Assembly (NCBI GenBank): GCA_027483535.1
Contig: JAIXUN010000003.1
Location: 1 to 64,000 of the forward strand
Reading direction: 5' to 3'
Length of the DNA: 64,000 nt
Source of the DNA: a bacterium
GTDB taxonomy: Bacteria > Armatimonadota > Fimbriimonadia > Fimbriimonadales > Fimbriimonadaceae
Shown piece by piece: positions 13,895-48,456 of the stretch; the stretch's first letter is position 1, and every line of letters starts with the position of its first letter. The translations under genes were made by a program, and so were the position numbers. The notes below the pieces were generated by a model. That model had not been told where the DNA came from. It searched no databases and worked only from the letters and a program-made list of their open reading frames with translations.

Positions 13895-14908
13895 TCGGGG
13901 GTGTTGGGGTCGGACCTTTCATTGCAAGTTTCTCACAAGCGAAACCCTCGCCCCTCCGGGGGAGAGGGTGCCCCGTCAGGGGCGGGTGAGGGGTCTAAAA
14001 TTCCCCTCTATGGAGGGGTGGCGCGAAGCGGCGGGGTGGTCGGCAGATTCGGAAATCGTCCAATGTTGAAAAGCCGCCGGAGCCCCTTATCGAAGAGATT
14101 GGTCGCCACAAAGAGACCTTAATCCGGAAACCACCCCGGCCTTGCAGGCCACCCCTCCATAGAGGGGAATTTGGTCTGGACCTTCTTTCCGAGAAGCGGC
14201 GGAGCCGCGACAATCATCGCAGCCCAGGGTTTCAACCCTGGGTCGGGGGTTCTCGTTTAACGCCAGAAGGGCGGAGCCCTGGCAATAGGTTTTCCCCTTG
14301 TAGAAAAGGTGTCCGGAGTATCTGGTCGGTCCTCCGGACCTTTGACCAATATGCGACCCCCTACCCAGACCTAGCGGTCTGGGCTAACCGTCTGGACGGT
14401 CCTCCGGACCTCCAGGAAGAAAAGAGCCGACTTGCCAAAATTCCCCTCCCCGATAAATCGGGGCAGGTACTGGAGAGGCGGTCCCGAGAATGAGGAACGG
14501 GGTGGTCGGTAGATTCGAAAACCGTCCAATGTTGAAAAGCCGTAGGAGACCCTTATCGAAGAGATTGGTCGCCACACCAAGGATGTACTCCGGAGACCAC
14601 CCCGGCCTTTCAGGCCACCCCTCCATAGAAGGCAATTAGGTTTGGACCCTTCGATGACAGTTATCCGAAGCGGAACCCTCGCCCCTCTGGGGGAGAGGGT
14701 GCCCCGACAGGACCGGGTGAGGGGTCCGAGAAAGCGGCGGAGCCGCGACCATCATCGCAGCCCAGTTCCCCTCCCGAAGCCTGTCCCGTATCGGGAATGT
14801 CCGGAACAACCCAGCAATCCTGCTAGACAAGAAGACTTCCAAAAGATCTTCCGACAGACTATCTTTAGCGTGATTAATGCAGTTTTTTGCATTTGTCTTG
14901 GGATAGCT
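13895..14908. repeat. Large composite repeat island (units D, C, A, B, C, D, A)
   Basis: About 1 kb without genes. Order: D 13941-13995; C 13999-14172; A reversed 14194-14242; a GGGCGGAGCCC block near 14269-14300; B reversed 14311-14410; second C 14439-14637; D 14672-14728; truncated A 14731-14763. The two C copies share inner sequence (AATGTTGAAAAGCC and CCTTATCGAAGAGATTGGTC), so they are one subfamily. The final 140 bp lead into the PEP-CTERM gene and are AT-richer, consistent with its promoter. Confidence 0.8.
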
Positions 14909-18790: not shown

Positions 18791-19699
18791 TCGGTTTGGG
18801 GGCTAATTCTCGGGAGAGATCAGGTTACGGGCGAGGGTTTTGAACCCAAATGGGGGGGATTGAACCCTCGCCCCTCCGGGGGAGAGGGTGGTCCCGAGAA
18901 TCGGGACCGGGTGAGGGGTCCGGGAATAGTTGGGAGTCGCACCCAACAAATCAGTTTCGCCGCCTTTGGAAAGAAGGTCCAACCCAAATTCCCCTCTAAG
19001 GAGGGGTGGCGCGGAGCGACGGGGTGGTCGGCATTTTCGGCAGCTTCCCGGTTACATCCGAAAGGGTCAATGCCTTCAAGGACCAGATCGGTCGTCATCG
19101 CGAGTTGGAACCCGGAACCACCCCGCTCCCTTGGGGCACCCCTCCCAGGAGGGGAATTTGTTTCGCCTTTTTCTTCTTGAGGTCCGGAGGACCGGCAAGA
19201 CTGTTAGCCCAGACCAATAGGTCTGGGTAAAGGACGCATATTGGTCAAAGGTCCGGAGGACCGGCCAGATACTCCGGGCACAATTTCGACAAGGGGGAAA
19301 ACCGTATTGCCAGGGCTCCGCCCTTCTGGCTCTTAAAAAGAACCCCGTTACCCAGGGTTGAAACCCTGGGCTGCGATGATGGTCGCGGCTCTGCCGCTTT
19401 ATAGAGATGACGCCCTGAGTGGTTTGGTCGCTTTGCCTGGATTGTAGAAACAGACCAGATTCATTCACCTCCCGGGAGGGGTGCCCGCAGGGCGGGGTGG
19501 TCTCCAGGGAAGTGATTGTTGGTTTCCGGAGTATCTGGTCGGTCCTGCCGGACCTTTGATCGATAACGACCGCCTACCCAGACCTGTCGGTCTGGGCTAA
19601 CAGTCTTGCCGGTCCTCCGGACCTTGAAGAACAGGCCTTCCTTTTCGTAGGGAGCAGACCAGTGAAATTCCCCTCCGAGGAGGGGAATTTGGACCGACC
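18791..19699. repeat. Composite repeat island (units D, C, B, A, C-half, B)
   Basis: About 900 bp without genes. D 18862-18921; C 18987-19159; B 19181-19277 with CCCAGACCAATAGGTCTGGG between two GGTCCGGAGGACCGGC boxes; GGGCTCCGCCC block 19287-19332; A 19350-19402; left arm of C 19462-19502; B reversed 19526-19623; a collapsed C tip AATTCCCCTCCGAGGAGGGGAATT near 19666-19690. Inner sequence of the C copy (GGTCAATGCCTTCAAGGACC) is shared with the C copy at 36443. Confidence 0.8.
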
Positions 19700-23155: not shown

Positions 23156-23948
23156 GAGGGAGTGACCATTGAGGGTTTTCCCCGTTGGGCGGCGGGAGTC
23201 GCCACCGGTTATTGCTGGGAATTGTCGATTGGGGAATCGGGGGCTGCGCTATGCAGATCTGGCGGCCTCGCCGGACTTTGGGCCGCTTTCTGAGTTGGTC
23301 TACCGCTACCTGGGTATCGAGAAGGGCTCGCTAAAATTCCCCTCCATGGAGGGGTGCCCCGTCAGGGGCGGGGTGGTCGGCAGTTTCGATCTCTATCAGA
23401 TTCTGAAAGAACAAACCAGAACCTTCAGATTATGATTAAAAGCTAGTAATTCCGGAAACCACCCCGTCGCTCCGCGCCACCCCTCCATAGAGGGGAATAA
23501 GTTTGGGTTCCCGATAGAAACTGGTCGGAGCGGCTCCCGATTCCTCCAGTCAGTCGGAAGAGGCAACTTGCTTGTCGCTCCCGAGAATCGGGAAGGGGCC
23601 TTGAAGATAACTTGAAGGACCGACGAAGAAACCCTCGCCCCTCCGGGGGAGAGGGTGCCCCGTCTGGGGCGGGTGAGGGGTCCGGGAGAAGATCTTAGCT
23701 TGTCCCGTCTTTGTCTCGGAGAATCTGGCCGGTCCTTCCCGATTCTCGGGACAGGCCTACCAGGAGGGGAATGAGTTTGGGTTCCCGATAGAAACTGGTC
23801 GGAGCTGGGTCCTGATCTTTCCCGAATAATTGGGAGCGGCTCGGCTCAAGATATTCTTATTGAACGAATGTGCCGGGATAAAGTATCTAAGTAGAGGGGA
23901 GACTCAACCTAACAAGCGGCAAACCCACCCAAATAACAGGCTCGCATA
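23156..23948. repeat. Repeat island with units C and D and a conserved C-flank
   Basis: No gene. C 23335-23499 with inner sequence CAGAACCTTCAGATTATGAT, followed by a flank (TTTGGGTTCCCGATAGAAAC, to about 23552) that also follows the C copies at 25205 and 26057. The flank appears again alone at about 23761-23808. D 23628-23684. From 23830 the sequence is AT-rich (AAGATATTCTTATTGAACGA and GGATAAAGTATC) and likely holds the promoter of the next gene. Confidence 0.75.
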
Positions 23949-24976: not shown

Positions 24977-26432
24977 GAGCCGCATTGAGTCGGAGTGATT
25001 GTTGGCGAAGCCTCTGTTGGCCATGATCGGTTTTGCGCGTCTCAGCCACCCCTCACCCCCTGCCCCTCTCCCCTCCAAAATCGGAGGGGAGAGGGGGAAC
25101 ATAATACGGGCCACTCGCTAACCCAGGGTTGAAACCCTGGGCTGCGATGATGCGCGCGGTTCCACCGCTCGAGGCTCCGCTTCCTGACGAGCAGATCCGC
25201 TTTTATTCCCCTCTATGGAGGGGTGCCCCGTCAGGGGCGGGGTGGTCGGCAGTTTCGATCTCTATCAGATTCTGAAAGAACAAACCAGAACCTTCAGATT
25301 ATGATTAAAAGCTAGTGATCCCGGAAACCACCCCGTCGCTCCGCGCCACCCCTCCATAGAGGGGAATGAGTTTGGGTTCCCGATAGAAACTGGTCGGAGC
25401 GGCTCCCGATTCCTCCAGTCGCTCGGCGGAAGCAACTTTGCTCGTCGCTTCCGCGTATCGGGATGCCGCATCGAAGATAACTTTAAGGACCGACCAAGAA
25501 ACCCTCGCCCCTCCGGGGGAGAGGGTGCCCCGGAGGGGCGGGTGAGGGGTCCGGGAGAAGAATATCGCTTGATCCGGCGTTGTGTAGGAGTATCTGGCCG
25601 GTCCTCCGGACCTTTCATCTCTAACGAACACTCACCCCAGACCTGGCGGTCTGGGCTAACAGTCTTGCCGGTCCTCCGGACCTTTCCAGAGTGTGTTGCA
25701 TCATCCAACTTGTGGAGCCGGACTCGCCAACATTCCCCTCCATCGAGGGGAATGAATTTGGATTCCAGTTACGGTCTGACCGAAGCGGCGGAGCCGCGAT
25801 AATCATCGCAGCCCAAGGTTTCAACCCTGGGTCTGTGGATTCCTTGTGAACCCAGAACGGCGGAGCCGTGGCAATAGACAAATCGTTGTGAGGAACCACC
25901 CCTCACCCCCTGACCCCCTCTCCCCTCCGAAAATCGAAAGGGAGAGGGGGAAATCAATTTGGGATCGCTTTAACCCAGGGTTGAAACCTTGGGCTGCGAT
26001 GATGCGCGCGGTTCCACCGCTCGAGGACCCGCTTCCTGACGAGCAGATCCGCTTATATTCCCCTCTATGGAGGGGTGCCCCGACAGGGGCGGGGTGGTCG
26101 GCAGTTTCGATCTCTATCAGATTCTAAAAGAACAAACCAGAACCTTCAGATTATGATTAAAAGCTAGTAATTCCGGAGACCACCCCGTCGCTTCGCGCCA
26201 CCCCTCCCATGAGGGGAATGAGTTTGGGTTCCCGATAGAAACTGGTCGGAGCGGCTCCCGATTCCTTCAGTCGCTCGGAACAGGCCTGCTCTTTGTGTAT
26301 CTGATCCACTACCCAGACCTGGCGGTCTGGGCTAACAGTCTTGCCGGTCTTCCGGACCTTTCCAGAGTGTATTGCAGGGTCCAGATTGTGGCGGAGGACC
26401 CGCAAAAATTCCGCACCCCCGATAACCCCCCC
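24977..26432. repeat. Largest repeat island, with a near-identical internal duplication
   Basis: About 1.45 kb without genes. D variant 25046-25097; A 25120-25170; C 25205-25368 plus C-flank to about 25420; D 25498-25553; B reversed 25586-25684; C tip near 25733-25754; A reversed 25783-25832; D variant 25897-25951; A 25972-26022; C 26057-26219 plus flank to about 26275; half B 26307-26361. The block 25046-25420 and the block 25897-26275 have the same unit order and almost the same bases, including CGCGCGGTTCCACCGCTCGA, so one is a copy of the other. Confidence 0.8.
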
Positions 26433-36367: not shown

Positions 36368-37199
36368 TGGGAGGGTATCGGTTAAGGGACGGTTGAGGTC
36401 GGGCAGACGTTGCCCAGATCGGGATTTTGGGGGGATTGAACCCAATTCCCCTCTTGGGAGGGGTGGTCAGCATTTTTGGCAGCTTTCCCGTTTCGTCCGA
36501 AAAGATCAATGCCTTTCGGGGACCGAATGGGTCGTAATCGCGAGTTAGAATCCGGAACCACCCCGCCCCGTTGGGGCACCCCTTCTTAGAGGGGAATATG
36601 GTGCAGCCTTTCCTTCCGTAAGGTCCGGAGGACCGGCAAGACTGTTAGCCCAGACCGATAGGTCTGGGTAGGTGTTCGTTAGAACGCAAAGGTCCGGAGG
36701 ACCGACCAGACACTCCGGGACCTTGTCGACAAGGGGGAAAACCGTATTGCCAGGGCTCCGCCCTTCTGGCTCTTGACGGATTCCTAAACCCAGGGTTAAA
36801 ACCCTGGGCTGCGATGATGGTCGCGGCTCCGCCGCTTTCGGAATGGTGGGGGGATCCCAATTCAATTTCCCTCCTGGGAGGGGTGGTCCCGAGAATCGGG
36901 AACGGGGTGGTCTCCGGGATTGTGGTTTTGGTGACAAATGCGCCCGGATTTGAGACGTAAGATTCTCGCCTGAAGAGCGCAGGTCGAGACTGGAATAGCC
37001 GACCACCCCGCCCCGTTGGGGCACCCCTCCGGTGCCTGCCCCGATTTATCGGGGAGGGGAATTTCGGACCCCTCACCCGGCCTTCGGCCACCCTCTCCCC
37101 CAGAGGGGCGAGGGTCGCAGATCCCGCCTTTTTCTAGTTGAAACCCTGGGCTGCGATGCTTGCCGCGGCACCGCCGCTTCCCAGACCCCTCAACCGACC
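36368..37199. repeat. Composite repeat island (units C, B, A, C, D, A)
   Basis: About 830 bp without genes. C 36443-36598; B 36620-36719; GGGCTCCGCCC block 36725-36773; A 36787-36838; second C 36864-37065, with CCCGAGAATCGGGA inserted in the left arm and a CCCCGATTTATCGGGG insert in the right arm; D reversed 37069-37114; truncated A 37136-37181. The order B, GGGCTCCGCCC block, A, C matches the order at 19181-19502. Confidence 0.8.
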
Positions 37200-41801: not shown

Positions 41802-42328
41802 AATTCCCCTCTAAGGAGGGGTGGCGCGAAGCGACGGGGTGGTTTCCCGGAAAAGGAACCCTCAATCCTCGACAAGAGACTCATCAATCGCCAACGCCGG
41901 ATGCTCCGAAAGCATCTCCACTACATCGACAAGGTGATGAAACACGGCGTGCGCTGAGACATGGATCACGGTCAATCCCAGTCCATCCAAAAAGGTCCCG
42001 CGCTCCAAATCGTAGTCGACCTTTTCATCATGAGAAGCGCCGTCGACTTCAATAACCACACCTCGTGACGCGCAGAAAAAATCGACTATGTAGTTCCCAA
42101 TGACCTTCTGACGGTCGAAGTCGAGCCCGTTCAATTGCCGCTTCTTGAGCTGATTCCAAAGGAGGACCTCATGAAGAATTCCGGCTCTTCGAAGCTCCTT
42201 TGCTCGTTCTCTCAGCGCCGGGTTAAACGGCAAATCCCGAAAGCGCTGCAAATCCCTCAACGTTTAGGTCCCCGATGGGAAGAATAGACCACCCCGCCCT
42301 GCGGGCACCCCTCCATAGAGGGGAATTT
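41802..42328. mobile_element. Unit C element containing a DUF559 nuclease gene
   Basis: The left arm AATTCCCCTCTAAGGAGGGG plus the following CGACGGGGTGGT (41802-41844), and the right arm GACCACCCCGCC plus CACCCCTCCATAGAGGGG (42287-42328), are inverted copies of the ends of the short unit C elements. Instead of about 80 bp of filler they enclose the DUF559 gene (41862-42260). The arrangement is that of a gene-carrying member of the repeat family, or of a gene caught between two halves. Confidence 0.6.
41862..42260 (-). CDS. DUF559 domain protein (Vsr-like endonuclease fold)
   Basis: 132 residues. LRRAGILHEVLLWNQLKKRQ, NGLDFDRQKVIGNYIVDFFC and VVIEVDGASHDEKVDYDLER match the DUF559 core: a PD-(D/E)xK/Vsr-like nuclease fold with the acidic D and E-x-D residues and DxxR following. 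Family members are often carried on mobile or repeat DNA; substrate unknown. It is exactly framed by the inverted ends of a unit C element. Confidence 0.9.
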   Translation of the reverse strand: MRDLQRFRDLPFNPALRERAKELRRAGILHEVLLWNQLKKRQLNGLDFDRQKVIGNYIVDFFCASRGVVIEVDGASHDEKVDYDLERGTFLDGLGLTVIHVSAHAVFHHLVDVVEMLSEHPALAIDESLVED

Positions 42329-42804
42329 CAATGGCAATTTTCACGACAGTTGTTCTCCTGAACAGTAACGCCAAACGCTTACCGAACTTCTGCCCTTGTA
42401 TCACCGAAAAATCACCTTCCGAAGACGGGCCAGATTTATTCCCCTCTATGGAGGGGTGGTCCCGAGAATCGGGAACGGGGTGGTTTCCGGGCGTTTTTCT
42501 CTCCCTGAAGACAGCCAAGCGCGATGAACATCCCACGAAGGATATTTTGCGACTTTCGGTAATGCCAACCACCCCTCTATAGAGGGAAATTTAATGGGTT
42601 CCTTCCTTACAACCCTTCGCCAGGACCCATCGGAGGCTCCTCCTTTAGCACATTTGAAAGAAAAACTCCTGCCCTTTTTCGCCGCAATAAAGAGTTCGTA
42701 ATGGGGAAACCAGCCTCATTCCCCACTATAGAGGGAAATGTCTCTGGTCGGCTTTCCTACCGTCAATCTATCTCTCAACTGCGCCTTAGCGATAATGCGC
42801 TCAC
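42261..42804. repeat. Repeat island with a second unit C and degenerate C tips
   Basis: C 42438-42592, whose right arm is shortened (CACCCCTCTATAGAGGGAAA). A further degenerate tip CCCCACTATAGAGGGAAATG lies at about 42722-42741. No gene seen. Base composition falls towards AT from about 42600. Confidence 0.65.
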
Positions 42805-47816: not shown

Positions 47817-48456
47817 GCTGGTTGTCGGTTGAGGGTTCCGTATTGGACAATTTGTAACGAAAGGTCCGATCCATATTCCCCTCTTGGGAGGGGTGGCGCG
47901 TAGCGACGGGGTGGTCGAGACTCTCGCACTCAAAGGCGTAGGCAAAAGGAGGGCCTCCGCAGGTCCGGAGGACCGACCAGATTGTTAGCCCAGACCGATA
48001 GGTCTGGGTAGTTGACACAAAAAATTTATAGGTCCGGAGGACCGACCAGATACTCCGAATCTTTCGTCGAGACTTTCACAGAAACCACCCCGCCCCGTTG
48101 GGGCACCCCTCCCGGGAGGGGAATTTGGCTCGGACCTTCTTTCCGGAAGCGGCGGAGCCGCGACCATCATCGCAGCCCAGGGTTTTAACCCTGGGTTCGA
48201 GAGGGGCCGTTTTAGACCAGAACGGCGGAGCCGTGGCCATCGCATCTCATCAGAACAAAGGCGTTTTCCGGAGCTTCTGGACGGTCCTCCGGACCTTTTC
48301 AAGAGAACTGACCGGTCAGATTCCCCTCTAGGTAGGGGCGAGGCTTCTTCCTCCATTGCACCGGACCTGCATTAGCGCGGATTCTCGTCCGAATCTTCTT
48401 AACAATCCGCCTCATCCGTACCCGCAAGGCATACAGGTCCCCTATGCTAAGTACCG
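47817..48456. repeat. Repeat island with a unit B nested inside a unit C
   Basis: C spans 47875-48126: left arm ATTCCCCTCTTGGGAGGGGT plus GACGGGGTGGTC, right arm ACCACCCCGCCC plus CACCCCTCCCGGGAGGGG. Inside it lies a full B (47961-48057). Then A reversed 48145-48196, a CGGCGGAGCCG block 48221-48245 and half B 48264-48298. The last 120 bp carry the promoter of the PEP-CTERM gene, with CTTAACAATC near 48397. Confidence 0.75.

Follow-up and report, generated by a model that had tools for sequence, protein, structure and literature searches.

The window analysed here is a stretch of 64,000 nucleotides from a bacterium of the Fimbriimonadaceae (contig JAIXUN010000003.1, positions 1 to 64,000 of the forward strand), and at positions 41802-42328 a gene for a DUF559 (PD-(D/E)XK, Vsr-like) nuclease occupies the gap between two inverted arms of a repeat, unit C. 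The gene (41862..42260, minus strand) has 132 codons and a TTG start. Downstream of it lies the left arm (41802..41843, plus strand), composed of AATT, the outer hairpin CCCCTC-TAAG-GAGGGG, the inner hairpin gGCGCGAAGCGaC and GGGGTGGT; upstream of it lies the inverted right arm (42287..42327, minus strand), composed of AATT, CCCCTC-TATG-GAGGGG, the inner hairpin GCCC-GCA-GGGC and GGGGTGGTC. The initial annotation had placed the nuclease gene exactly between the inverted ends of a unit C element, and the two arms, separated from the gene by only 18 bp and 26 bp, confirm that placement. The outer arm ends, AATTCCCCTCTAAGGAGGGGTG (41802-41823) and the inverted CACCCCTCCATAGAGGGGAATT (42306-42327), show 95% complementarity over 22 nt. 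Read inward, the C arm is laid out as AATT, the palindrome CCCCTC-N4-GAGGGG, TG, a small second hairpin and GGGGTGGT, the arm ending with GGGGTGG after a second hairpin that keeps its shape and varies in sequence. Framing is scored here by the strongest inverted repeat that the two flanks of a gene form with each other, a score of at least 14 being taken as framed. The window locus reaches 24 and the mean for control placements along its sequence is 9.6; framing of this gene by chance is thus unlikely. An Rfam search gave no match at the locus.

The 132-codon open reading frame matches the Pfam DUF559 profile (PF04480) with E=1.3e-28 and 99.5 bits, well above the curated cut-off of 20.6 bits, in agreement with the original description of a 132-residue Vsr-like nuclease, and it carries the conserved acidic and histidine residues of the family. 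Residues R24, E31, W35, R50, D60, F61, E71, D73, D84 and R87 are invariant over 31 diverse DUF559 members and H77 is nearly so. The catalytic-type residues among these (E31, D60, E71, D73, H77 and D84) are spaced much like the residues named for VsrA of Caulobacter (PMC12907096), and by analogy they are a candidate active site of the window protein. Its AlphaFold2 model (pLDDT 89.7) is most similar to the Neisseria DUF559 structure 3hrl (E=5e-6), followed by the homing endonuclease I-Bth0305I (3e-4) and Vsr (0.03). The likeness to I-Bth0305I (PDB 3r3p) and Vsr (PDB 1cw0) lies in the fold and in E-D-x-H-D-like residues; the window type of element differs in having no intron or intein, in its inverted hairpin ends and in its many unrelated insertion sites. 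A PHROGs search returned one weak match to an unknown family, and a scan of viral contigs showed no relative of the window nuclease.

Caulobacter VsrA, itself a DUF559 protein, is required for the DNA-damage response in cells that have no cytosine methyltransferase, and a mismatch-repair endonuclease role has been proposed for it (PMC12907096). The window protein might accordingly be read as a host Vsr-like mismatch nuclease or mutator with the repeats as side products, a reading for which VsrA speaks. The elements are too short for a methyltransferase gene, however, and the patchy distribution of the genes (61 of the 85 family genomes contain PF04480, with at most 11 in any one), their several copies in one genome and the occurrence of broken copies fit a selfish element better, so that a repair origin of the repeats appears very improbable.

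The C arms are numerous in the window and in the host. Their outer palindrome has 44 matches in the window at up to 3 mismatches, compared with 0.63 expected, and the exact arm ATTCCCCTCNNNNGAGGGGTG is present in 133 copies in the 3.77-Mb host genome (Fimbriimonadaceae, Armatimonadota), a backward control giving 0. Most of the matches listed fall within three places: the first part of C4, C3, and one of the ends of C1. Host C arms occur mostly in nuclease-free pairs of about 170 bp, and in a sample of ~0.4 Mb there are 40 close inverted pairs, all of 146-308 bp except the window locus (524 bp), as expected from the earlier remark that other C copies carry short filler between the same arms. 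A nuclease-free copy of 153 bp with the inverted arms alone lies next to the locus (42438..42590); a typical nuclease-free element spans 171 bp at 14000..14170, and others lie at 78-239, 18988-19157, 23336-23498, 25205-25367, 26057-26219, 36445-36597 and 47875-48124. Many short copies thus share the ends of a coding element, which is a MITE-like arrangement (~133 arms genome-wide). The filler inside the nuclease-free pairs is unrelated or only partly shared; the arms are common to the short copies and the nuclease element, together with a TCCGGA-like subterminal motif at one end only, and since this motif is shared at one end only the short copies are not clear internal deletions of the nuclease element. 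The suggestion of the initial annotation that this is the autonomous or founder form of a MITE-like family is supported in part, in that gene and arms move as a unit (see below); the element is at most a possible founder of the short copies.

The host genome contains two true DUF559 genes, both C-armed, one with degenerate arms. A host DUF559 gene lacking C arms, which the initial annotation had set out as counter-evidence, was sought and not found among the true DUF559 genes: upstream of the second one (C4:388316) there is a degenerate C-type arm as well, and downstream of it the remnant of an inner arm. A third, weak DUF559 match lies in a 256-aa open reading frame (E=3e-4). In addition, solo 22-bp palindromes ATTCCCCTCNNNNGAGGGGAAT are present in the window at 19667..19688 and 25732-25753 and elsewhere (L010, L015, L016, L018, L021, L022); their sequence looks like that of two outer half-arms of unit C put together, which would be either a deletion scar or an unoccupied target.

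Framing is a property of DUF559 genes in general. Within the family, inverted arms frame 82 of 104 DUF559 loci (best between-side inverted repeat scores of at least 14). Across phyla the figure is 60 of 80, as against 65 of 3591 random placements (1.8%), in a set drawn from a GTDB-wide scan that includes Binatia, Latescibacteria, Nitrospira, Proteobacteria, Chloroflexi, Planctomycetes, Gastranaerophilales, Spirochaetes, Elusimicrobia, Acidobacteria, Bipolaricaulota and others, with 2 of the 80 duplicating loci of the first, 104-locus set. A gene-type control in the same genomes found 17 of 23 DUF559 genes framed and none of 27 PIN-domain genes. In about one DUF559 gene out of four no arms could be detected. 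DUF559 genes with inverted arms are also found in plasmid records of Sphingomonas, Azospirillum and Deinococcus, and further copies of the arms were found in the element's own genome for 32 of the 82 armed elements, small stretches having been sampled. In the window the spacers combine several palindromic repeat families in mosaic fashion, and it could be supposed that hairpin repeats accumulate in intergenic DNA where DUF559 genes chance to sit; such a coincidence is scarcely credible given the 1.8% of control placements and the complete absence of framed PIN genes, the matching of arms within an element and their tracking of nuclease similarity, and the complete elements inside coding genes described below.

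Two side observations belong to these surveys. Genes for the four-helix-bundle or 23S rRNA IVP proteins (PF05635) of the same family are framed by inverted repeats at 22 of 28 loci (L287-L316, e.g. L293, L302, L315), their arms being built of short units repeated in tandem, GTTGGCA or TAGAGAG for instance. Contig JADZEW010000025.1 (L153), titled Methanoregulaceae archaeon, is identical to the Fimbriimonadaceae contig G056:C25 and is probably, to judge from this identity, a mislabelled or mixed genome bin.

Pairs of related elements reveal the extent of the segment that moves. Two loci of one genome, L130 and L132, share 97% identity over the span -129 to +170, which is bounded almost exactly by the arms at -130 and +167, and their flanks are unrelated. 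Two loci from two genomes of one genus, L088 and L124, likewise share 84% identity over the span -62 to +108, their arms lying at -63 and +106, again with unrelated flanks. That gene and arms are mobile as one unit which ends at the arms is well supported by these alignments. Empty sites in relatives, whose comparison the initial annotation had called for, bear this out in part: the DUF559 gene is absent at the L088 site of a sister genome, where the site is not clean, an unrelated mini-element with its own arms being present instead. Both sister-genome comparisons found a different mini-element or solo arm at the site rather than untouched sequence; DUF559-free sites are often filled by another armed repeat, and perfectly clean empty sites at the nucleotide level are few. 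Target-site duplication was not detected: the best direct repeat averaged 2.80 nt for 40 C elements (2.81 shuffled) and 2.56 for 115 DUF559 elements (2.40 with shuffled flanks). Assignment to the classical DDE transposons with MITEs was rejected, there being no target-site duplication beyond shuffled levels.

Some DUF559 elements are inserted in frame within hsdS, ispE, M14 peptidase, prmA and DUF1156 methylase genes, the frame remaining open throughout, arms included. The hsdS insertions of Binatia, Latescibacteria and Nitrospira share a single conserved region of the gene, and the ispE insertions were found in five Gastranaerophilales genomes; the Pfam match to PrmA comes in two stretches, one on each side of DUF559, and other genomes of the set have their ispE, prmA and peptidase genes without interruption. 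One ispE frame (L216 4858-6588) has two DUF559 domains, one N-terminal and one internal. A variable loop of Gastranaerophilales IspE contains three unrelated in-frame palindromic inserts in different species, namely the DUF559 element, a TGTCA-type repeat dimer and a CCCCCT-armed element, the latter two in two further genomes, and is empty in others (L283, L284, L199, L265, L269, L270). Rickettsia palindromic elements likewise lie in frame inside protein genes (PMC10969869), but these are ~150 bp and no nuclease is reported for them in that review, whereas here whole nuclease-coding elements are in frame.

Occupancy of the same region in hsdS and ispE hints at homing and is suggestive only. 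If homing applies, the nuclease would cut an intact target, possibly the 22-bp solo palindrome or a permissive site in a gene, and repair would copy the element in, the arms being the two halves of the target; this reading departs from the one preferred below in the DNA that would be cut first. In its favor are the match in fold and profile to I-Bth0305I, a mobile-intron homing endonuclease, the structure of the solo palindromes as two outer half-arms joined, the hsdS region shared by three phyla and the lack of target-site duplication. However, the elements are found at many unrelated sites with unrelated flanks, the left and right loops of the C element are related by inversion and are not direct duplicates, deletion between two self-palindromic arms would equally yield solo palindromes, and recombination among hsdS genes may account for the shared hsdS site. 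Homing is therefore considered unlikely.

Arms and nucleases have diverged together. Between genomes arm similarity tracks nuclease similarity (Mantel r=0.40, the maximum of 999 permutations being 0.096), although such co-divergence would also be expected if arms and gene simply co-travel. Co-occurrence of C arms and DUF559 outside the window, which the initial annotation had made a point of, was found in three elements of other genomes (L053, L068, L108), whose nucleases are 61-63% identical to that of the window; the next-closest nuclease is 43% identical and has arms of another type. The C arm is present in 3 of 85 related genomes, with 133 copies in G000, 11 in G022 and 5 in G006. Two of these three have a C-armed DUF559 gene, G022 containing the C-armed L068, and the nuclease-free copies are thus concentrated where the cognate nuclease is present; in G006, with its 5 C arms, no DUF559 was found, which counts against a nuclease-driven reading. 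One rare arm pattern that was tested has only 1-2 copies per genome.

The folding of the arms appears to be maintained. The inner segment pairs over at least 3 bp in 99 of 100 complete C arms (46% when shuffled), with at least five inner stems unrelated in sequence (CGC/GCG, GGCCT/AGGCC, GCCCC/GGGGC, TCCCGA/TCGGGA and GTCGC/GCGAC). Across DUF559 elements 73% of 267 arms have a perfect stem of at least 6 bp (shuffled 8%), and a third-strand match of at least 8, in which a G-rich stretch mirrors the purine strand, is found in 41% of stem-bearing arms (6% for shuffled tails). The arms thus often appear triplex-capable, with a C-rich strand, a G-rich strand and then a second G-rich strand. Since shape is kept over sequence, we infer that selection acts on the single-stranded or extruded form of the arms.

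The closest known parallel is that of the REPtrons and TIRtrons with their RAYT (Y1/HUH) genes (PMC3733652, PMC2817692, PMC3116915), in which one small nuclease-type gene likewise lies between inverted hairpin repeats. As in REP/REPIN-RAYT systems, gene-free inverted pairs of the repeat are abundant and multiply within the genome, and the elements studied here show no target duplication. Hairpin repeats that stand inverted about the gene and recur elsewhere without it are thus features in common; the enzyme differs, DUF559 being of the unrelated PD-(D/E)XK fold and not a tyrosine HUH enzyme, and so does the arm class. RAYT membership, tried as a candidate, was rejected because the gene between the repeats is DUF559 and PF01797 has 0 matches in the whole host genome. 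With an unrelated enzyme and no Y1 gene the element falls outside the REP/RAYT family despite the parallel logic. A further candidate, the CGTC-tagged REPs, which have the CGTC tag beside a short stem starting with AT and according to PMC3733652 lack a transposase, proved unsupported, since CGTCATT-type motifs occur within 400 bp just 4 times over 184 DUF559 loci.

An unrelated enzyme, such as a REP-associated HUH/Y1 protein or other transposase, might nevertheless move the arms, with DUF559 as cargo, perhaps for repair or defence. HUH/Y1 genes are indeed common in the relatives, where inverted hairpin arms frame them too (20 of 26, score at least 14), and other window repeats, units A and D, resemble the arms of RAYT-type Y1 genes in relatives (GGTCCGGAGGACC...TTAGCCCAGACC...GGTCTGGGTA and CCAGGGTTGAAACCCTGGG; these repeats lie at 14315-14411, 19180-19276, 25587-25683, 36621-36717 and 47961-48057 and at 1-49 and 14188-14241). 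Yet the host genome has ~133 C arms and no Y1 gene, the RAYT arms found in the family belong to another class (the CCCTC/GAGGG-type hairpin is found in 0 of 18 for RAYT vs 103 of 138 for DUF559), the lack of framed PIN genes implies that the identity of the cargo is not random, and comparison of the window protein with the PADLOC defence models matched 0 families, giving no sign of an anti-phage function. With no Y1 gene in the host, a specific class of arms and unframed PIN genes as control, the passenger explanation is weakened, and we regard it as improbable.

Many arms of DUF559 genes also resemble a published repeat class of wide occurrence. Holder et al. in 2015 described a G/C-rich intrastrand triplex motif, CCCTCNCCC-N3-6-GGGNGAGGG-N3-GGGNGAGGG, with 23 copies in E. 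coli MG1655 and ties to genome instability, and triplex/PIT repeats were recorded in more than 260 bacterial genomes (PMC4666352). Transposases and integrases were sought there in the gene contexts of the motif and none were found, nor were mobility functions nearby; endonucleases and DUF559 go unmentioned in that paper. Of 184 DUF559 genes, 26 have this published TM_ECO pattern, at up to 3 substitutions, to the left and right in inverted orientation, and a further 27 have it on a single side (0 of 1317 among controls); the pattern so frames a part of the DUF559 genes. The window's own arms do not fit the pattern at up to 3 substitutions: the second loop of the C arm is longer, an 11-13 nt hairpin replacing the 3-nt loop. 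In MG1655 a TM_ECO copy lies 166 bp from the DUF559 gene ycjD, on one side only (L397 5205-5241); the naive chance of a motif so near is 0.002, and is several-fold higher if spacers alone are counted. In a spread of 59 E. coli genomes, those with ycjD have a median of 22 TM-like places (n=37) and those without it 6 (n=22), a lineage-confounded difference to be taken as a lead. The ycjD-free strains that were examined have other genes (TetR/RND efflux) beside fabI and so do not provide a clean empty site. A gonococcal DUF559 gene (L404) adjoins a tandem array, of 281-bp period, of inverted triplex-motif pairs. Among 14 open-access papers that mention DUF559, none deals with repeats to judge from title or abstract.

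We consider it probable that the locus is a minimal autonomous mobile element: its nuclease would act on the ends of the element in their folded form, and the copies without a nuclease would depend on it. The DUF559 nuclease would recognize its own arms when these are folded, single-stranded or extruded, for example behind the replication fork, and would cut at the folded arms; host replication and repair would then carry the armed segment, by copying or pasting, to a permissive site elsewhere, and the nuclease-free C elements would be mobilized in trans. From the framing, the movement as a unit, the in-frame insertions, the cognate repeats, the co-divergence, the folded ends, the lack of target-site duplication, the fold of the protein and the absence of a Y1/HUH gene we infer that the nuclease drives the mobility. 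Weighing against this reading are the DUF559 genes in which no arms were detected, the C arms of G006, the one-sided TM motif at ycjD, the fact that further arm copies turned up for only 32 of the 82 armed elements in the small stretches sampled, the rarity of the other arm pattern tested and the scarcity of clean empty sites.

The DUF559 package suggests itself as the long-missing mobilizer of a widespread class of bacterial repeats, and a concrete candidate mover can thereby be named for the triplex/PIT repeats, one that is testable in E. coli K-12. In its broadest form, to which we would give about even chances, the proposal is that armed Vsr-like nuclease elements are a pan-bacterial transposable class with triplex or hairpin ends which is the source of the TM/PIT repeats, has left YcjD as its E. 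coli remnant and can live in frame within essential genes. The insertions in ispE, prmA and hsdS would be selfish nuclease genes inside open reading frames without intron or intein. If the nuclease-driven reading is correct, it would provide a function for DUF559, for which Pfam still gives "unknown function", and a transposable element together with its MITEs would be sustained by a single nuclease of the Vsr/homing fold, in parallel to RAYT/REPIN but by chemistry that is unrelated.
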